Position numbers and translations under genes: made by a program
The notes under the pieces: generated by a model
Seen by the model: only the letters and a program-made list of their open reading frames with translations
Databases searched by the model: none
What the model was told of the DNA's origin: nothing
Assembly (NCBI GenBank): GCA_028694565.1
Contig: JAQVKR010000007.1
Coordinates: 1-17,629 of the forward strand
Reading direction: 5' to 3'
Length of the DNA: 17,629 nt
DNA from: Gammaproteobacteria bacterium
GTDB lineage: Bacteria > Pseudomonadota > Gammaproteobacteria > DSM-26407
Shown here: positions 8,822-17,629 of the stretch, piece by piece
Numbering within the stretch: position 1 is the stretch's first letter
Layout: each line of letters starts with the position of its first letter

Positions 8822-8842
8822 TGTGAGTGATTAATTGCTTTT
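8822..8842. promoter_or_regulatory. Copy B of the 21-bp shared motif in the TetR/hydrogenase-subunit divergent promoter
   Basis: On the plus strand it reads TGTGAGTGATTAAT then TGCTTTT, the reverse complement of copy A with one mismatch. It lies in the 74-base gap between the TetR ATG and the hydrogenase-type ATG, so one bound protein could control both. The central ATTAAT is palindromic, but the flanking half-sites are only partly symmetric. No clear -10/-35 pair can be fixed in this gap. Confidence 0.78.
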
Positions 8843-8876
8843 TACGCCTAAACGTTTCCCGGGTCAAGGGCTGGCG

Positions 8877-10118
8877 ATGGGGGAAGGGGCTATGAAGCGG
8901 TTTCTCCATGCGGGGAGATGCGGTGGTGGAGGCGGCGCGCCCACCCTCGCGGCACCCACGCCGCCGTCGGGGAGGGGATTGTCCAGGCGCGCCTTCCTCA
9001 AGTGGGCCGCGGTGACGGCCTCCAGCCTGTCCCTGCCGGCGCACGCCGCCATGGAACTGGTCGATGCGCTCGATTCCGGCCGCCGGCTGCCCGTCATCTG
9101 GCTCTCGTTCCAGGAGTGCACCGGCTGCAGCGAATCCCTGACCCGTGCCGGGGCGCCCACAATCGAGCGGCTGCTGTTCGGCTTCATCTCCCTGGAATAC
9201 CATCACCTGCTGCAGGCGGCGGCGGGTGCGCGGGCGGAAGCGGCCCGTGACGAGGCGCGGGAGAGGGAGAAGGGCGGCTACCTGCTGGTGGTGGAGGGCT
9301 CGATCCCGACCGCCGCGGGCGGCGCCTGCGCCACCACGGCGGGGAAGAGCCACCTGGACCAGCTGCGGGTGTTCGCCGCGGACGCGGCCGCGGTCATCGC
9401 CGTGGGCGGCTGCGCGAGCGACGGCGGTCTGCCGGCCGCGGCACCCAATCCAACGGGCGCCATGGGGGTCGGGGCGCTGATGGAGGCGGGCCTGGTGGCG
9501 CGACGGCCACTGGTGAACCTCCCCGGCTGCCCGCCGTTGCCCGTGGTGCTGAGCGGGACGCTGGCCCATTTCCTGGCGTTCGGCCGCTTCCCAGAGAGCG
9601 ATGACGGGGGACGGCCGCTCGCCTTCTACGGCGCCACGGTTCATGAGCGCTGCAGCCGCTACCACTTCTACCAGCAGGGCCTCTTCGCGCGGCGCTTCGA
9701 CGACGAGGGCGCCCGCAAGGGCTGGTGCCTGTACGAACTGGGATGCCGGGGACCGGTCACCCGCAACGCCTGCGCCTCGCACAAGTGGAACGGGGGCGTC
9801 AGCTTCCCGATCCAGTGCGGGCATCCCTGCATCGGCTGTTCGGAAACCGGCTTCTGGGACCGTGATGGCTTCTATCGGCCGCTCGAGGCGGTCGCCCTGG
9901 AGCGTGCCGACGCCTCCGGCCGGGGAGAGGCCCTCTACCAGGGCAACTGCGTCTACTGCCACCCGGTGGACCCGGCCCAGCTCGGCATCTCCCCGGAGGG
10001 CGCGGTTGAGCAGTTGCGATCGAGCGCCATCCGCGCCCACCAACGTTTCAGTTTCACGGATACGGAGCTGCAGGATCTGGAGGCCTACCTGTCCGAGCGG
10101 GGCGCAACGCCGCCATGA
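8877..10118 (+). CDS. [NiFe]-hydrogenase small-subunit homologue with C-terminal c-type heme domain
   Basis: 413 residues from the ATG at 8877 (AAGGG upstream); an ATG at 8892 is also possible. A Tat signal 'LSRRAFLKWAAVTASSLSL' (Arg37-Arg38) directs folded export. The small-subunit core is intact. Proximal cluster ligands are Cys81 and Cys84 in 'ECTGCSES', Cys179 in 'VGGCASDGG' and Cys218 in 'LPGCPPLP'. Distal ligands are His256 and Cys259 (HERC), with Cys284 and Cys290 (WCLYELGC). Medial ligands are Cys299, Cys318 and Cys321 (GHPCIGC), with an extra Cys314 next to the GHPC motif. The CTGC motif is the standard oxygen-sensitive form, not the six-Cys type. The usual C-terminal membrane helix is absent; instead residues about 350-413 form a mini cytochrome c with 'NCVYCH' (Cys358, Cys361, His362) and a 'FTDTELQDLEAYLSE' end helix. 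No Met axial ligand is evident; His388 could serve. No large-subunit gene is in the window. Function is inferred to be periplasmic electron transfer. Confidence 0.9.
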   Translation: MGEGAMKRFLHAGRCGGGGGAPTLAAPTPPSGRGLSRRAFLKWAAVTASSLSLPAHAAMELVDALDSGRRLPVIWLSFQECTGCSESLTRAGAPTIERLLFGFISLEYHHLLQAAAGARAEAARDEAREREKGGYLLVVEGSIPTAAGGACATTAGKSHLDQLRVFAADAAAVIAVGGCASDGGLPAAAPNPTGAMGVGALMEAGLVARRPLVNLPGCPPLPVVLSGTLAHFLAFGRFPESDDGGRPLAFYGATVHERCSRYHFYQQGLFARRFDDEGARKGWCLYELGCRGPVTRNACASHKWNGGVSFPIQCGHPCIGCSETGFWDRDGFYRPLEAVALERADASGRGEALYQGNCVYCHPVDPAQLGISPEGAVEQLRSSAIRAHQRFSFTDTELQDLEAYLSERGATPP

Positions 10119-10183: not shown

Positions 10184-10535
10184 AAAAAGTAAAACATGGT
10201 TTTCCCGATGTGAAAGCAGGCTGTTGTTCTGCCTTCTGGCGGCTTTCGTCGTGACCGGCGCCACCGCGGTTGAACCGGCATCCAGACCCTTTTCCGTCCA
10301 CGACCGGGACCAGGACGGCGTCCTGAGCCGCGATGAGTACGCGGCGCTGCTGGGACGGATGCAGGAGCGACAGAAGCAACGGGACATGGCCGGGCGGTTC
10401 CATTCCCCGCGCCTGCTCGATTTCGACGCGGTGGACGCGAATGGCGATGGGCGAATCACGGAAGAGGAGCTGGGGGCGGCGCTCGAATCGCAGCTGGAAC
10501 GCCAGCGCGGCTACCGTCATCACCGCGAACGATAG
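10176..10535 (+). CDS. Exported EF-hand calcium-binding protein
   Basis: 119 residues from the ATG at 10176; in-frame ATGs at 10143 and 10149 are alternatives and neither has a strong ribosome binding site. An N-terminal basic stretch (MNKKSKTWFSRCESR) and hydrophobic core (LLFCLLAAFVVTGATA) form a signal peptide. Two EF-hand loops are clear: 'DRDQDGVLSRDEY' and 'DANGDGRITEEEL', each with Asp/Asn at positions 1, 3 and 5 and Glu at 12, so both should bind calcium. The helix between them is rich in Arg, Gln and Met. It follows the hydrogenase-type gene by 57 bases on the same strand and is probably co-transcribed. A periplasmic calcium sensor or structural partner of the redox protein is possible but not shown. 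Confidence 0.85.
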   Translation: MNKKSKTWFSRCESRLLFCLLAAFVVTGATAVEPASRPFSVHDRDQDGVLSRDEYAALLGRMQERQKQRDMAGRFHSPRLLDFDAVDANGDGRITEEELGAALESQLERQRGYRHHRER

Positions 10536-11008
10536 TATGCGGGTGGGAGTTGCGTGAACGTCCGTCCTCATGGTTGGCGGGTAATCCCGAGCGGTTGAAA
10601 GCGCTGACGCCGCTACCATTCTGGCGCGACCACGCCTCCGGAGATGATTTCCCTAAACTCGCTATAACTGCGTCACCAGAAACTTTAATCGCCCCCTCCC
10701 GCCGGGTGCCGGAGCGAGCGACATCCATTGGCGCTTACTCATCCCTCGCGCGGGGGGCAACCTGTTGAAAGCTCTGCAAGTGGGAGCATCCCCAAATGAA
10801 GGGGCGAACGCTAACCGCCGATTAGTAGTGTAAACGGGGACGAAGCATGGCAATGGCGCCTATACTGCCAAGGGCTCCTTTTAGGCTGGCCGGCTGGTGC
10901 GAATCCGTGGTAAATCCCCTATTATTGCATGGCGCCGGAAGTCGTATTGTAGGTTGGCATTTCGCGGAAATTGAGCTGGGGCTAGGCGTGTCGACAACGG
11001 AGGCTGGC
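10536..11008 (+). other. Intergenic stretch without a convincing gene
   Basis: GC content falls to the right across this stretch. Short ORFs here lack good starts, family motifs or consistent codon use. A small hairpin CCCC-AAATGAA-GGGG lies at 10790-10804 and a short CTAA/TTAG dyad follows near 10811-10825. There is no intrinsic terminator after the EF-hand stop. The stretch may be eroded mobile DNA, but no transposase remnant or terminal repeats could be identified. Confidence 0.5.
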
Positions 11009-11590
11009 ATGAAAGGAATGGTTGTAGTCGTCTTGGCTCTTCTCTTTGCATCTGCTTGCAGCACCAACAGAATTCCTCCTGAAATTCCGGCGACTGTAAC
11101 GAAGCAGGAAGTTGTTTCAATGCCGGTGTTTCATCATCTATCCTCGATTGAAGTATGGGGCTTTGAGGAGACGGAGCCTCGCTTTTTGGTGAGGGACTAC
11201 TATCCGCAAATTAGGCAAAAAATTGTTGATAGCCATTTGTTTAGGCAGAACCCTCTTCGCGAAGGGGATTTATATTGGCTGGACATTAGATGGAGCTATA
11301 GAAATAGGGACGAAGGGGTTGCTGCGGCCACAGGAATATTGCGTGCATTTACCTTGTTCCTTGTGCCAGGCAAAATCACGATGATCCATACCATGGAAAT
11401 TGATGTCCATGAAAATGGAAGGCTCCGAAAGTCGTACCGCTATGACAAGGAGGTTGAATATTGGTCTAATTTGATGACTGAGAACGAGATTAGCGGCGCG
11501 ATCTGGTTTCATAAAGGGGTGAACGCTATTCTTTCTCAATTTTATGAAGACCTAAATAAGGACGGCTACATGGTTATCAAGGGCATATAG
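11009..11590 (+). CDS. Putative lipoprotein of unknown function, AT-rich gene
   Basis: 193 residues from the ATG at 11009, which has GGAGG five bases upstream; an in-frame extension to 10847 is rejected because it buries the signal peptide. 'MKGMVVVVLALLFASACSTN' is a lipoprotein signal with Cys17 as the lipidation site and Ser next, favouring the outer membrane. The rest is soluble: 'LSSIEVWGFEETEPRF', 'YPQIRQKIVDSHLF', and a hydrophobic turn 'GILRAFTLFLVPGKITMIHT' that could be amphipathic or membrane-associated. I do not recognise the family. Codon use is clearly AT-richer than neighbours (many AAT, GAT, TTT and ATA codons), suggesting acquisition by transfer. It stands alone between the redox cassette and dif. 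Confidence 0.75.
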   Translation: MKGMVVVVLALLFASACSTNRIPPEIPATVTKQEVVSMPVFHHLSSIEVWGFEETEPRFLVRDYYPQIRQKIVDSHLFRQNPLREGDLYWLDIRWSYRNRDEGVAAATGILRAFTLFLVPGKITMIHTMEIDVHENGRLRKSYRYDKEVEYWSNLMTENEISGAIWFHKGVNAILSQFYEDLNKDGYMVIKGI

Positions 11591-11910
11591 TACGGTTATC
11601 GGCTGATTGGTAGCCGCCTATCTACGGCCTCTCTTCCGGAAATATTTGGATGTCGTTGGGGTGAGGAATATGCGTGAATCGGTGGGCTCTCCCAAGCGTA
11701 AGTAGTGCTTCCACACTTTAGGGAGCTTACAGAATCGCTGGACCGGAAGTCGTCACTATGCGCAGCCATATGGAGTGGGGCCGGTAGTTTCGAGTCGCGT
11801 TTCCAGCACCGCATCCTCACTAGGTCAGAGGAACAACTCAGGGTGCATCCAGCCCCCTCTAACAGAGCAATGGATGGAAACAGCGACTCCATTTCGACTC
11901 TGCAGGCAAG

Positions 11911-11996
11911 TTTAGGGGTTTGCATGGCAGTGGCTGACAACTTCAGGGGTTTACGTTGAATTTTAGTGGCTTGCGTAAAATTCTTTAGCACTTTGC
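11911..11996 (+). repeat. Four degenerate 13-bp direct repeats left of dif
   Basis: The copies are TTTAGGGGTTTGC (11911), TTCAGGGGTTTAC (11942), TTTAGTGGCTTGC (11962) and TTTAGCACTTTGC (11984), with spacings of 31, 20 and 22 bases, all on the same strand. The cluster ends 48 bases before dif. It could be a protein-binding array or decayed repeat DNA; the last copy matches the first at only ten positions. Confidence 0.45.
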
Positions 11997-12043
11997 AAGC
12001 TCAATCAACAACCTCAAATCCGGGTATGAACACCATCTATAAT

Positions 12044-12071
12044 AGTTCGCATAATGTATATTATGTTAAAT
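12044..12071 (+). other. dif: dif chromosome dimer resolution site (XerC/XerD)
   Basis: The 28 bases split into a XerC arm AGTTCGCATAA (12044-12054), a 6-base centre TGTATA (12055-12060) and a XerD arm TTATGTTAAAT (12061-12071). From CGCATAA onwards all 24 bases equal the E. coli dif site, and the first four fit the gammaproteobacterial consensus (RNTK). XerC and XerD recombine chromosome dimers here under FtsK control. It lies in a gene-free AT-rich pocket, as dif usually does. It marks the replication terminus, and only one copy was found. Confidence 0.97.
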
Positions 12072-12078
12072 TATGTAG

Positions 12079-12119
12079 CCCTTACCGTGAAGTTCCGGGA
12101 CTTATCCGGACGGTAAGGG
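12079..12119. repeat. Bulged inverted repeat immediately right of dif
   Basis: Outer arms CCCTTACCG (12079-12087) and CGGTAAGGG (12111-12119) are perfectly complementary. Inside them TCCGG (12094-12098) pairs with CCGGA (12106-12110), leaving a 6-base bulge on one side and a 7-base loop. It begins 7 bases after dif. It could terminate transcription approaching dif or be part of a mobile or protein-binding element. T-runs beside it are weak (ATTCTTCCT on the right). Confidence 0.6.
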
Positions 12120-12354
12120 ATTCTTCCTGAAGGACTGGCGCCTCTCCTCCTGGACCTCTGGTCCCGTGCACCTGCGTCACGGGGACTCCCCGTCGCCGGA
12201 TGCAGATCGCCGGCACTTCGTTCGGCGGCGGTGCTGACAGGCGCGGGAACGGTGTGTGCGCACCGGCGGGAAGGTGGTGGCCGTTCATCAACTTGCTGAC
12301 TCCCTCCGTGACCGGTTCGGGTCTGCCATCGCCCCGCCCCATTAATTCACGGCA

Positions 12355-12383
12355 TTGCCTCCATCCTGCCCAGCCGGTATCAG
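12355..12383 (+). promoter_or_regulatory. Possible sigma-70 promoter for the sortase-target operon
   Basis: TTGCCT (12355-12360) and TATCAG (12378-12383) are separated by 17 bases and lie about 80 bases before the small ORF start. Agreement with the consensus is partial, so this is only a candidate. Confidence 0.3.
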
Positions 12384-12465
12384 GCCGCTGGTCTGGAATG
12401 CACTCCAGGGACGCTGCCCCAGAATGCGTCCCGGGTCATCGGCCAGGACGGAGAGGTGCGTGCAC

Positions 12466-12645
12466 ATGAAACTGTTCATCCCCATAGAGGATCCCGCCAT
12501 GGATTCGGATGCGTCGGCGGAGCTCCCCATTCCCTACCATCCCGACTACCCCTGCCTGAGGCACTACACGCAGGGCGCCGGTGGCGAGTATCCCGCCGCG
12601 CCGACGGTCACTGATGAATGCGGGGTCGGCCATGGACAGAATTGA
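12466..12645 (+). CDS. Small 59-residue protein of unknown function, first gene of sortase operon
   Basis: The ATG at 12466 has GGAGAGG eight to nine bases upstream, a good ribosome binding site. The protein starts MKLFIPIEDPAMDSDASAEL and continues with a Pro- and Tyr-rich stretch 'PIPYHPDYPCLRHYTQGA'. It has two Cys, no signal peptide and no membrane segment. Its stop overlaps the next gene by 14 bases, so the two are probably translated together. I do not recognise it. A leader or coupling ORF for the sortase target is one possibility; a real small cytoplasmic protein is another. Confidence 0.5.
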   Translation: MKLFIPIEDPAMDSDASAELPIPYHPDYPCLRHYTQGAGGEYPAAPTVTDECGVGHGQN

Positions 12646-14752
12646 AAACCGGAACCCCCGACCGGCGCCGGGCGGGTGTGAACGGCATCACCGGATGCGT
12701 GGCGTCCGCGCCCTGCTCCTCGTTGTCCTGTTGGCGCTGATCGGGACCGGGTACGCCGAGCGGATCAGGGCCGCCATTCTCCCGAAAAGCCACTTTGAAG
12801 GCGGTGCCCTGCTGTTCAGCGCCAGCCCCGAATCAGAGCCGCTGCCGGCGCCGCTCCAGAGCACCGAGGCGGTTATCCGGGTCACGGGCATGCTGGCGCG
12901 GGTCCGGGTCATGCAACGGTTCCGCAATCCGGCGTCCGCATGGGTCGAGGGCCGCTACATCTTCCCGCTTCCCGATACCGCCGCGGTGGATCGGATGCGC
13001 TTGCAGGTGGGCGAACGCCTCATCGAAGGCCAGATCCGGGAACGCGGGGAGGCGCAGCGCGTCTACGCCGCCGCGGCCGCAAGCGGGCGCCGCGCCGCGT
13101 TGGTGGAGCAGGAGCGGCCGAACATATTCACCACCTCGGTGGCCAATATTCCCCCGGGCGGCACCGTGACCGTGGAACTGGAGTACCAGCAGGCGGTGAG
13201 CTACAGCGATGGCCGGTTCAGCCTGCGCTTTCCCATGGTGGTGGGTCCCCGCTACATCCCGGGTCGGCCCGTTGTCCCGGATGACGACGGCGCGTCCCTT
13301 TCCACGCCGGTGGTGCCCGATGCCGGCCGCATCAGCCCGCCCGTCCGGCACCCCGCCGACGGTCCGGTCAACCCCGTGCGGCTGAGCGCGGAGCTGGAGT
13401 CCGGATTCCCCCTGGCCGGGGTCGAGAGCCTCTACCATGCCGTTGCCGTGGAGCAACAGGATGAGCTCCGTTATCGCATCGGACTCGCCGAGGGACCGGT
13501 GCCCGCCGATCGCGACTTCGTCCTGCAGTGGCGCCCGCGGCCGGGCGCCGAGCCGCGCACGGCGCTGTTCGGCGAAGCGGACGCCGCCGGCACGGGCGGC
13601 TATGGCCTGGTGCAGATCCTGCCGCCCTTCGGCGACGACTCCCCTGCCCCGCCGCCGCGGGAGATGGTGCTGGTCATCGATGTCTCCGGCTCCATGCACG
13701 GCGAGTCCATCGCCCAGGCCCGGGCAGCGCTGAGCCTCTCCCTGGAGCGCCTGCGTCCCGGGGATCGGTTCAACATCATCCGCTTCAACCACCGTGCGCA
13801 GGCGCTGTTCCCGGCCTCCCGTCAGGCCGATGACCGCAGCCTGTCCATGGCCCGGCGTCTCGTTGCCGGCCTGGAAGCCGAGGGCGGCACGGAGATGCTC
13901 GCCGCCCTGCAGCTCGCCCTGGACCAGCCGCAGGATCCCGAGCAGCTGCGCCAGGTGGTGTTCATCACCGACGGTGCGGTGGGCGACGAGGATCGCTTGT
14001 TCGATTACATCCGCCGGCACGCCGGCGCCAGCCGGCTGTTCACGGTGGGCATCGGTTCGGCGCCCAACGGGCACTTCATGCGCAAGGCGGCGGGATTCGG
14101 CCGCGGCACCTTCACCCATATCGGCCGACCAGGCGAGGTGTCGGAGCGAATGGGAGAGCTGCTGCGCAAGCTGGAGTCGCCCCAGCTCACCCACCTGGAG
14201 CTCACCATGCGGGACGGGGCTGCCCCGGTTCGCGTCCTGCCGGAGCGGATTCCCGATCTCTACCGTGGCGAGCCGCTGCTGCTCACGCTGCACTGGACCG
14301 GTGCGGCACCGGCAATCGAGGTGCGCGGCCGGCTGGCGGGCAGGCCCTGGTCACAGGCCCTGACGCTCGATCAGGCCCGGCCGGGCGCGGGTGTCGGCGT
14401 GCTGTGGGCGCGCCGCCGCATCGAGGCGCTCATGGACGCCCACCGGGCGAGCCGCGACGAGACGGTTCGCGACGAGCTCCGCCGGGCGGTGGTCGGGGTG
14501 GCGCTGGCCCACCACCTGGCGAGCCCCTTCACCAGCCTGGTGGCGGTGGACGTGACGCCCGCGCGGCCCGGCGCCGAGAGCCTGCGGCAGCGGACCGTGG
14601 AAACCAACCTGCCCCAGGGTTGGGACTACGACCACGTATTCGGTCTTCCGCAGACCGCCACGCCGGGTCCGCTGCTGCGCTGGCTGGGGCTGGCGCTGGT
14701 GTTCGGAACCCTCCTCGGCTGGCGCCTGCTGCCGGGGAGATTCCGGGCGTGA
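12632..14752 (+). CDS. Proteobacterial sortase target protein with VIT and VWA domains
   Basis: About 706 residues from the ATG at 12632; ATGs at 12614 and 12695 are alternatives. A hydrophobic export segment lies at residues 22-42 (MRGVRALLLVVLLALIGTGYA). A VIT domain follows ('RVRVMQRFRNPASAWVEGRY', 'FPLPDTAAVDRMRL', 'PNIFTTSVANIPPGGTVTVE'), about residues 65-215. The VWA domain begins at 'EMVLVIDVSGSMHGESIAQA' with the metal-binding DxSxS motif at about residue 350, and continues through 'FITDGAVGDE'. The C-terminus is a sorting signal: LPQTA at about residues 671-675, a hydrophobic stretch (LLRWLGLALVFGTLLGWRLL) and an Arg-containing tail. This is the layout of the 'marine proteobacterial sortase target protein' family (TIGR03788). 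The adjacent sortase gene overlaps it by four bases, so this is a dedicated enzyme-substrate pair. Biological role unknown; surface adhesion is plausible from the VWA domain. Confidence 0.95.
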   Translation: MDRIENRNPRPAPGGCERHHRMRGVRALLLVVLLALIGTGYAERIRAAILPKSHFEGGALLFSASPESEPLPAPLQSTEAVIRVTGMLARVRVMQRFRNPASAWVEGRYIFPLPDTAAVDRMRLQVGERLIEGQIRERGEAQRVYAAAAASGRRAALVEQERPNIFTTSVANIPPGGTVTVELEYQQAVSYSDGRFSLRFPMVVGPRYIPGRPVVPDDDGASLSTPVVPDAGRISPPVRHPADGPVNPVRLSAELESGFPLAGVESLYHAVAVEQQDELRYRIGLAEGPVPADRDFVLQWRPRPGAEPRTALFGEADAAGTGGYGLVQILPPFGDDSPAPPPREMVLVIDVSGSMHGESIAQARAALSLSLERLRPGDRFNIIRFNHRAQALFPASRQADDRSLSMARRLVAGLEAEGGTEMLAALQLALDQPQDPEQLRQVVFITDGAVGDEDRLFDYIRRHAGASRLFTVGIGSAPNGHFMRKAAGFGRGTFTHIGRPGEVSERMGELLRKLESPQLTHLELTMRDGAAPVRVLPERIPDLYRGEPLLLTLHWTGAAPAIEVRGRLAGRPWSQALTLDQARPGAGVGVLWARRRIEALMDAHRASRDETVRDELRRAVVGVALAHHLASPFTSLVAVDVTPARPGAESLRQRTVETNLPQGWDYDHVFGLPQTATPGPLLRWLGLALVFGTLLGWRLLPGRFRA

Positions 14753-15297
14753 AGCGGCGCACGGGCCTCCTGCTCCTGGGCCTGTTCGGCCTGGGGTTGC
14801 TGGCCTGGGGCAGCTGGATTCCTCTCAAGGGGTTGCTGGCCCAGGCGCTGCTGGAGCGCACCTGGGCCGCCAGCAGCGCCAGCTCGACCCCGCGCCCCTG
14901 GCCCTGGGCCGACACCCGGCCGGTGGGGCGGCTGCGCATCCCGCGCCTGGGGGTGGACCTCATCATCCTCGCCGGCGACAGCGGGCGGACCCTCGCCTTC
15001 GGTCCCGGCCTGGCCGCCGGCAGCGCGCCCCTCGACCGCCCCGGCACCCACCTGGTGAGCGGCCACCGCGATACCCACTTCGGCTTTCTCGGCGCGTTGC
15101 GGGAAGATGATCGAATCGAGCTGGAGCGGCCCGGCGGGTCCCGTCGCCGTTACCGGGTCAGCCGGATTGCGGTGGTGGACGCGCGCACCACGGCGTTCGG
15201 CGCCGATTCGGACCGGCTGCTGCTGGCCACCTGCTGGCCGCTGGAGGCGCCGGTTCCGGGAGGACCGCTGCGCTACCTGGTGACGGCCGTCCCCTGA
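14749..15297 (+). CDS. Class GN sortase
   Basis: 182 residues from a GTG at 14749 that overlaps the target-protein stop (GTGA), with GGGGAG nine bases upstream. An N-terminal signal anchor (TGLLLLGLFGLGLLAWGSWI, residues 5-24) places the enzyme outside the inner membrane. The catalytic set is present: His in 'HLVSGHRDTHFGFLG', Cys in 'LLATCWPLEAP', Arg in 'GPLRYLVTA'. Other sortase features are 'VGRLRIPRLGVDLIIL' and 'RIAVVDARTTAF'. The length suits the single-substrate proteobacterial sortases (marine sortase family TIGR03784). It should cleave the LPQTA signal of the preceding gene product between Thr and Ala. In a Gram-negative cell the acceptor nucleophile is not known. Confidence 0.95.
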   Translation: MKRRTGLLLLGLFGLGLLAWGSWIPLKGLLAQALLERTWAASSASSTPRPWPWADTRPVGRLRIPRLGVDLIILAGDSGRTLAFGPGLAAGSAPLDRPGTHLVSGHRDTHFGFLGALREDDRIELERPGGSRRRYRVSRIAVVDARTTAFGADSDRLLLATCWPLEAPVPGGPLRYLVTAVP

Positions 15298-15412: not shown

Positions 15413-16930
15413 ATGATCAACCCAGGAGCGGGTATTCCGGGAGGAGCCAGGTTGGACATTATCGGGAGTGGCGTTTCAACCCGCAGGGCGCGGTCCCTGC
15501 CGGGCGCTGTGCGCAGCGGGTTGCTGATGGCGGTCGTGGCCCTGGGCGGTTGCGCGGCAGTCGGGCCGGACTACCGGGCTCCCGAGCCCGATGTTCCCTC
15601 CCATTGGCAGCGAATCCCCACCGGGATGGCGCACGAGGTTGATGGGGAGGCCGCTGACCTTTCCCGCTGGTGGAGCGGATTCAACGATCCCCTGCTGAGC
15701 CGGCTGGTGGAGGAGGCACTGCTGAACAGCCCCGATGTGGCCACGGCCGTGGCCAAGTTGCGCGAGGCCCGGGCCAGCCGCGGGGCTGCCGCAGCGGACC
15801 ATTTCCCCACCCTGGGAGCATCGGGCAGCGCCAGCCGCAGCCGGGGCAGTTCGGAAACCGGAAGCGGCGCCGCGGTCGAACGCTATTCGGTCGGCCTCGA
15901 TGCCGACTGGGAGCTGGATATCTTCGGCGGAACGCGCCGGGCCGTGGAGGCGGCCGCGGCGGACGTGGGGGCCGCCGAGGCGGACCTGCGGGATGTGCGT
16001 GTCTCCCTGGCCGCGGAAGTCGCCCTGAGCTACGTGGAACTGCGCACCTACCAGGCCCGGCTCGCCATCGCCCGCGAGAACCTGGCGAGCCAGGCGGAGA
16101 CCTACAACCTCACCCGGTGGCGTGCGGAGGCGGGTCTCACCACCGAACTGGATGTGGCCCAAGCCCGTGCCAGCCTGGAGCAGGTGCGGGCGCAGATCCC
16201 CGACCTGGAGAGCGGCGTGACGGAGGCTGAACACCGTCTGGCGGTACTGCTCGGCCGGCAGCCCGGGGCCCTTCGCGCGGAGTTGTCGGCGGTTCGGCCC
16301 CTGCCGGCGCCGCCGGCCACGGTGGCCGTGGGCATCCCCGCGGACACGATCCGGCAGCGCCCCGACATGCGCGCGGCGGAACGCCGCCTCGCCGCGCAGA
16401 CCGCGCGCGTGGGCGAGGCGGTCGCCGCCCGCTATCCCTCCTTCAGCCTGGGCGGCACGCTGGGCCTCGAGTCCCTCGTCGCCGACAGCCTCTTCACGGG
16501 CGGCGCCATTACCCGCAGCGTGCTTGGCGGTCTGGCGGCCACGCTCTTCGATGGCGGACGCCTGCGCCGGAACGTCGAGATTCAGGATGCCCGCCAGGCG
16601 CAGGCGCAGGCCGCCTACGAGAGTACACTGCTCAACGCCCTCGAAGAGGTCGAGAACGCCCTGGTGGCGCTGGCGGCCAACCGGTCCCGGCACGCTGCCC
16701 TGGCGGAGGCCGCCGAATCGGCGCGCACGGCCGCGGCGCTGGCCCGTCACCAGTACACCGCCGGGCTGCTCGACTTCCAGACGGTACTGGATACCCAGCG
16801 CTCCCAGCTCTCCGTGGAGGATGAGCTGAGCCGCGTGGAGGGGGACGTGGTCTCCGGATACATCCGCCTCTACAAAACCCTCGGCGGCGGGTGGGAAGCC
16901 CGCTCCGCTCCCGAACCAGCACAGCCATGA
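15413..16930 (+). CDS. NodT-type outer membrane efflux lipoprotein
   Basis: 505 residues from the ATG at 15413. A TTG at 15452 with GGAGGAG close upstream is a good alternative start and would remove 13 residues. A lipobox 'VVALGGCAAVGPDY' gives a lipidated Cys, followed by the NodT/OprM-type 'GPDYRAPEPDVPSHW'. The rest is the TolC fold: 'WWSGFNDPLLSRLVEEALLN', 'EDIFGG'-like 'WELDIFGGTRRAVEAAAADV', 'GLTTELDVAQARASLEQVRA', 'RQRPDMRAAERRLAAQTARV' and 'ATLFDGGRLRRNVEIQDARQ'. It overlaps the following membrane fusion protein gene by four bases (ATGA), so it belongs to a second tripartite pump. It follows the sortase stop by 115 bases, which contain an AT-rich patch that could be a promoter. Confidence 0.94.
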   Translation: MINPGAGIPGGARLDIIGSGVSTRRARSLPGAVRSGLLMAVVALGGCAAVGPDYRAPEPDVPSHWQRIPTGMAHEVDGEAADLSRWWSGFNDPLLSRLVEEALLNSPDVATAVAKLREARASRGAAAADHFPTLGASGSASRSRGSSETGSGAAVERYSVGLDADWELDIFGGTRRAVEAAAADVGAAEADLRDVRVSLAAEVALSYVELRTYQARLAIARENLASQAETYNLTRWRAEAGLTTELDVAQARASLEQVRAQIPDLESGVTEAEHRLAVLLGRQPGALRAELSAVRPLPAPPATVAVGIPADTIRQRPDMRAAERRLAAQTARVGEAVAARYPSFSLGGTLGLESLVADSLFTGGAITRSVLGGLAATLFDGGRLRRNVEIQDARQAQAQAAYESTLLNALEEVENALVALAANRSRHAALAEAAESARTAAALARHQYTAGLLDFQTVLDTQRSQLSVEDELSRVEGDVVSGYIRLYKTLGGGWEARSAPEPAQP

Positions 16931-17629
16931 GGTTCCATGAAATGAACTCCCCCGACAAAGACGCGAGCCGGGATATCAACAACCTGCTCGGGGTGGACAA
17001 GCCGAGGAGCCATCGCGCCCGCTGGCTGCTGCTCCCGGCACTGCTCCTCGTGGCGGCCGCCGCCTGGTTCTGGGGCGCCGGTTCGGAACCGGTGGCGACC
17101 CGCTTCGTCACCGAAACGGTGCAACGGGGCGACCTGGTGGTGACCGTCACCGCCACCGGCACCCTGGAGCCCACCAACCAGGTGGACGTGGGCAGCGAGC
17201 TCTCCGGCATCGTCAAGGAGGTGCTGGTGGACGACAACGACATGGTGAAGGTGGGGCAGGTGCTGGCGCGCCTCGACACCACCAAGCTCACGTCCCAGGT
17301 GGTGAAGTCGCGCGCGGCCCTGAAGTCCGCCGAGGCGAAGGTGTTGCAGGCCCGGGCCACCGAGCGCGAGGCCAAGGCCGAGCTGGCGCGCCTGCGCAAG
17401 GTGTCCGAACTCTCCGGCGGCAAGCTGCCCGCCCGCTCGGAGATCGACGCCGCCGAGGCGGGCTGGGAGCGCGCCGGGGCCGACGTGGCCAGCGCCGAGG
17501 CGTCGGTGGCCGAGGCCCAGGCAACCCTGGAGTCCAACGCGACCGACCTGGAGAAGGCCACCATCGTCTCGCCCATCAACGGGGTGGTGCTGCTGCGCGA
17601 CGTGGAGCCCGGACAGACGGTGGCCGCCC
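16927..17629 (+). CDS. MacA-like membrane fusion protein (3' end outside window)
   Basis: 234 codons from the ATG at 16927 to the window edge; an ATG at 16942, with GAGG nine bases upstream, is an alternative start. A short cytoplasmic segment precedes one membrane helix (WLLLPALLLVAAAAWFW, about residues 35-51). Then come 'VTVTATGTLEPTNQVDVGSE', the lipoyl half 'VKVGQVLARLDTTKL', a long Ala/Glu-rich coiled-coil hairpin and the second half 'ATIVSPINGVVLLRDVEPGQ'. The 'TGTLEPTNQVDVGSELSG' region favours the MacA type, which pairs with an ABC transporter (MacB), so an ABC gene would be expected next. That gene is not in the window. Confidence 0.92.
   Translation, partial: MRFHEMNSPDKDASRDINNLLGVDKPRSHRARWLLLPALLLVAAAAWFWGAGSEPVATRFVTETVQRGDLVVTVTATGTLEPTNQVDVGSELSGIVKEVLVDDNDMVKVGQVLARLDTTKLTSQVVKSRAALKSAEAKVLQARATEREAKAELARLRKVSELSGGKLPARSEIDAAEAGWERAGADVASAEASVAEAQATLESNATDLEKATIVSPINGVVLLRDVEPGQTVAA

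Follow-up and report, generated by a model that had tools for sequence, protein, structure and literature searches.

The window analysed here, the whole 17,629-nucleotide stretch of DNA that forms contig C435 of a gammaproteobacterial draft genome (511 contigs, 3,018,059 bases, 88% complete), contains a complete dif, the site where joined sister chromosomes are resolved before a bacterium divides. This 28-mer, AGTTCGCATAATGTATATTATGTTAAAT, is almost certainly the resident chromosomal dif, predicted from its sequence to serve XerCD dimer resolution under the control of FtsK. For the window, the site is an anchor, marking both the terminus region and the point at which replication polarity flips. 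It is a real and rightly placed site, and an ordinary one of a very well-known kind. As dif is already described in most Proteobacteria (137 of the 156 species counted in PMC2731167), its presence here is no discovery.

Table. Positions of dif, of the features around it and of related sites beside viral recombinases. Positions are those of the window unless a locus is named.
Feature	Position	Strand	Basis
dif site, 28-mer AGTTCGCATAATGTATATTATGTTAAAT	12044-12071	+	Consensus scan, draft-genome search, Table 1 of PMC2731167
Left 11-mer, predicted XerC-binding arm AGTTCGCATAA	12044-12054	+	11+6+11 layout of PMC2731167
Central hexamer TGTATA, place of strand exchange; TATAGA in G001	12055-12060	+	G001 comparison
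Right 11-mer, predicted XerD-binding arm TTATGTTAAAT	12061-12071	+	Arm search; layout of PMC2731167
Lower-GC stretch left of dif	10532-12043		GC profile, G001 comparison
Probable gene for a 193 aa lipoprotein, with LASAC in its signal sequence (from translation)	11009-11590	+	ORF list
Hairpin-forming inverted repeat, 9 bp outer stem, begins 8 bp right of dif	12079-12119	+	Folding
Left flank, a single block of 10,545 aligned columns collinear with G001 at 89% identity	1-10531		Alignment
Right flank, 88% identical to G001 C2:450811-453779, same orientation, beyond the G001 prophage	12322-15287		Alignment
dif or half-dif beside viral recombinases	L146 4899-4926; L147 105-132		IMG/VR loci

Identity, copy number and predicted function of the site

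The window was scanned on both strands with RNTKCGCATAATGTATATTATGTTAAAT, which is taken here to be the gammaproteobacterial dif consensus. At up to three mismatches the 28-mer was the sole match, and it matched without a single mismatch, as the sequence-only reading had claimed in stating that all 28 positions fit the consensus. A chance match is ruled out as its source, given that none of 200 dinucleotide-shuffled windows held a match at the same threshold. The consensus string was not found in the main text of PMC2731167. Table 1 of that paper lists the dif of E. coli K12, GGTGCGCATAATGTATATTATGTTAAAT, which equals the window dif at 26 of 28 positions. The 24 consecutive bases said to be shared with E. 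coli are thus confirmed; the two differing positions, 1 and 4, lie in the XerC arm. The same table gives the dif of Neisseria meningitidis MC58, which is identical to the window dif at 28 of 28 bases. The sequence is therefore not specific to Gammaproteobacteria, and the label "gammaproteobacterial" that had been attached to the site is not diagnostic, since a betaproteobacterium carries the identical 28-mer. The MC58 site is listed in the table as "hyp. prot", that is, inside a hypothetical gene, whereas the window dif is intergenic, the ORF list holding no convincing gene between 11591 and 12580. The 28-mer, in which 6 of 28 bases are G or C, is poorer in G+C than its genome and is divided into arms and center after the 11+6+11 layout of PMC2731167.

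The site is present once in the draft. A search of the 88% complete genome with the 24-base dif core, at up to three mismatches, returned one match, and a reversed-pattern control returned none; the search for a second copy that had been proposed as a check thus found none at this threshold. The partner genes are also present, all scoring above cut-off: XerD on contig C488 (354 bits), XerC on C271 (348 bits) and an FtsK gamma domain on C325 (98.7 bits). In these three genes, and in the convergence of KOPS on the orthologous site of a relative, the system resembles dif/XerCD of E. coli.

A role in XerCD chromosome dimer resolution is most likely by analogy, and recombination at the window dif is something we infer from the E. 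coli system. XerC would bind the left arm and XerD the right arm. KOPS would lead FtsK along each chromosome arm, and FtsK would bring both dif copies of a chromosome dimer together at the septum. There, XerD and then XerC would exchange strands in the central hexamer, yielding two monomers.

The distribution of the site was surveyed in 76 genomes: its own, a single congeneric genome and 74 others from the class. The dif core was matched in 44 of these and, at survey stringency, in none of the other 32, with the reversed control giving no match in any of the 76. Two genomes, G052 and G057, hold two dif-like matches each; in G057 both are on one contig, oppositely oriented and separated by 29 kb. 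Flanks were compared for 29 dif loci with enough flank among 30 fetched, the window's own included. Outside the 28 bases there was hardly any conservation across these loci; part of the high conservation inside dif follows from the choice of loci by their match to positions 5-28. The exact 24-mer occurs in 9 of 144 loci compared, three of which come from the window's own contig and six from the dif search.

Placement in the terminus region

With its chromosome in 511 contigs, the genome cannot itself be profiled, and the position of the terminus was therefore transferred from G001, a genome of the same genus. The dif of G001 lies at C2:493580-493607 on the - strand and differs from the window dif only in the central hexamer. 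The two sites are orthologous by their flanks. The collinear block on the left stops about 160 bp short of the G001 dif, positions 12044-12079 of the window align at the G001 dif itself, and the G001 match of the right flank sits about 40 kb beyond that dif. Two more collinear pieces follow on the right, 15542-16803 at 70% and 17108-17628 at 77% identity.

KOPS were profiled along 800,000 bases of G001 contig C2 (818,383 bases in all), in window orientation and with the prophage described below included. Left of dif there are 111 forward and 46 reverse KOPS, and right of it 37 forward and 123 reverse, and the cumulative maximum, at which polarity breaks, falls 7.7 kb from dif. Restricted to 190 kb and without the prophage, the forward and reverse counts are 65/25 on the left and 9/37 on the right. 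A control motif, GGGANGGG, gave 83/76 on the left and 41/86 on the right; as it too is biased on the right side of dif, part of the right-side KOPS signal is general strand composition. The window itself holds small numbers of KOPS, six forward and one reverse left of dif and none forward and one reverse right of it.

The GC-skew peak lies less close to dif. In G001, with the skew of the prophage masked, cumulative GC skew reaches its maximum +99 kb from dif and then falls, and the distance is about 59 kb once the length of the prophage is removed as well. According to section 8 of PMC2731167, dif-to-skew distances in 161 chromosomes have a median of 7,277 bp; the third quartile is 21,445.5 bp and the extremes are 146 bp and 199,612 bp. 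The G001 distance is thus a loose fit, inside the published range yet beyond the third quartile and far from the median.

The short contig (17.6 kb) leaves the replicon of the window out of direct view, and the site could in principle be the dif of a chromid or plasmid and not of the main chromosome. This is extremely improbable: the orthologous G001 dif is on a contig of 818 kb whose KOPS polarity switches at that site, and no other dif was found in the 88% complete genome of the window. The reading that the window dif marks the terminus region, which the earlier note had put forward, is supported by the single draft copy, the G001 orthologue and the KOPS break 7.7 kb from the G001 dif, with the KOPS evidence taken from the relative. 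The further claim, that the site fixes one replication polarity for the whole window, does not hold. Polarity switches at dif, inside the window, and the window consequently straddles both chromosome arms. Moreover, dif marks dimer resolution and the end of segregation and not necessarily the point where forks meet; in P. aeruginosa, as reported in PMC6199493, replication can end elsewhere than at dif, where segregation ends.

A prophage at the dif of the same-genus genome

In G001, a tailed prophage of 39.7 kb sits exactly at the orthologous dif (C2:453843-493607, loci L038-L040). G001 thereby illustrates clearly that a phage can insert at dif, with the same neighborhood split by a large tailed prophage. 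The window's own dif shows no such insert. One end of the prophage is the intact dif and the other a half-dif, TCCTAAACAAATATAGATTATGTTAAAT, at C2:453843-453870, which keeps the central region and the XerD arm and is divergent in the XerC arm; copy to copy, the two are 39,737 bp apart. When 18 of its ORFs were scanned against PHROGs, 14 matched and 4 did not. The structural matches include tail length tape measure, tail, tail fiber, and portal and minor head proteins, and the others include a CII-like regulator, methyltransferases and a phosphoadenosine phosphosulfate reductase. The prophage carries three tyrosine integrases and one serine recombinase. An ORF for an Xer-like tyrosine recombinase of 328 aa starts 25 bp from the intact dif. 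This protein scores 168 bits as XerC and 158 bits as XerD, both below cut-off, and over 223 residues it shares 40% identity with the XerD encoded in the window's genome.

Like known Xer-exploiting elements, the G001 prophage is inserted exactly at dif and is bounded by one intact dif and one hybrid half-dif. Unlike them, it is a tailed prophage of 39.7 kb in which a gene for an Xer-like tyrosine recombinase stands beside dif, and because it carries this gene, it may not need host XerCD. Furthermore, the GGI and TLCphi sites, as given in PMC5357621, diverge in the XerD arm, whereas the G001 element diverges in the XerC arm. The prophage lies outside the window. Section 8 of PMC2731167 reports phage and integrase genes beside dif at 10.9% and 14.2%, respectively, of 161 dif sites. 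Among the papers listed, judged by title and the start of the abstract, no description of a tailed phage that brings a recombinase of its own to dif was recognized, which does not prove that there is none.

A scan of IMG/VR for close relatives of the 328 aa recombinase gave three loci. The first, on a 38.7 kb contig, is identical over 314 matched residues and likely derives from the G001 prophage; no att-like match was found on that contig. The other two relatives share 54% and 47% identity with the G001 protein; their loci are L147 and L146, the latter a 12.3 kb fragment. Both have a dif-like site about 100 bp or less upstream, with 17 and 25 of 28 bases as in the window dif, and L147 has a second, imperfect copy (21/28) 40.3 kb away, near the other end of the contig. 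Taking the G001 prophage together with these two relatives, a dif or half-dif lies within ~100 bp upstream of the recombinase match in all three, and a second, hybrid copy is present in two of them, 39.7 and 40.3 kb off. Among 369 genomes of the class, a relative of the recombinase at E 1e-50 or better was found only in G001 itself. A tblastn search of phage records with the G001 recombinase matched 237, all below 60% identity and the best at 44%. Tentatively, and as a reading that we hold possible rather than probable, the genus dif may serve as the att site of a clade of temperate phages that is small and rare, its members measuring about 40 kb in the cases with both ends in view. Judging from these sequences, such phages might carry an Xer-like recombinase of their own together with a half-dif attP, with its own left arm and a shared central region and XerD arm, and integrate without host XerCD, unlike classical IMEX.

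Surroundings of dif and other genes of the window

The AT-rich, gene-free pocket in which the sequence-only reading had placed the site is borne out in part. G+C content per 100 bases is 0.37-0.62 over 10501-12100, 0.62-0.69 over 12101-12700 and about 0.65-0.74 across most of the remaining window, so that the description applies mainly to the left side. Likewise, about 11591-12580 is free of convincing genes, but the left stretch holds a probable lipoprotein gene, and only the last ~450 bases left of dif are therefore gene-free. This gene, of lower G+C, has no Pfam and no PHROG match, and a search that depends on shared exact words found one relative, 99% identical, among 5.8 billion proteins.

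The sequence beside dif is variable. Positions 10536-12043 are without a match in G001, where the ~160 bp noted above separate the conserved block from dif, and positions 12072-12330 match neither G001 nor any other part of their own genome. The hairpin right of dif has a predicted folding energy of -22.2 kcal/mol (z -2.34), with 3 of 200 shuffles as good; a terminator-like role is possible on this model, although a simple terminator scan did not pick it up. Across the whole window, Rfam gave no match at gathering score, and a tRNA search found none. A snoRNA-like match below threshold in 10500-12700 (E 0.51) was taken as chance.

The lower-GC DNA on the left could be an integrated element that exploits Xer recombination, in which case the 28-mer would be its attL or attR and not a resident dif. 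Such an origin would agree with the lower G+C of this 1.5 kb, its absence from G001, its near-orphan gene and the presence of a real element at the same dif in G001. Additionally, the window holds six strings resembling the XerD arm at up to three mismatches against 2.5 expected, a count reached by 11 of 200 shuffles, and two of them, at 11951 (2 mismatches) and 11971 (3), stand just left of dif. However, no such string lies close to where the low-GC stretch begins on the left, no second dif is present in the window at up to three mismatches, and a Pfam scan of 13 ORF ranges of the window showed no recombinase. At these thresholds, the window lacks the second dif or half-dif that would flank foreign DNA at an IMEX attachment site. 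A search of the window for the XerC arm was too loose to discriminate, with 32 matches against 43 expected. Moreover, the flanks make the site orthologous to the G001 dif. An attachment site is accordingly very unlikely, and we read the low-GC stretch as probably an ordinary insertion or divergent stretch beside a resident dif, not an Xer element.

Several other genes of the window can be assigned. Positions 8835-10118 encode a [NiFe] hydrogenase small subunit (TIGR00391), whose translation shows a C-terminal extension with a CxxCH heme motif, and the gene adjoins one for an EF-hand protein; a large hydrogenase subunit was not found among the window ORFs scanned. The best 80 of at least 534 relatives of the small subunit are proteobacterial records at 52-61% identity, a set that may miss near records, and none of these 80 loci contains the exact dif 24-mer. 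Positions 12581-15297 encode a class GN (marine) sortase and its target protein, a pair matching TIGR03788 and TIGR03784. At the right end of the window, positions 17395-17628 match the opening 234 bases of another contig in the assembly, C395, at 99% identity; C395 is probably the neighboring contig.
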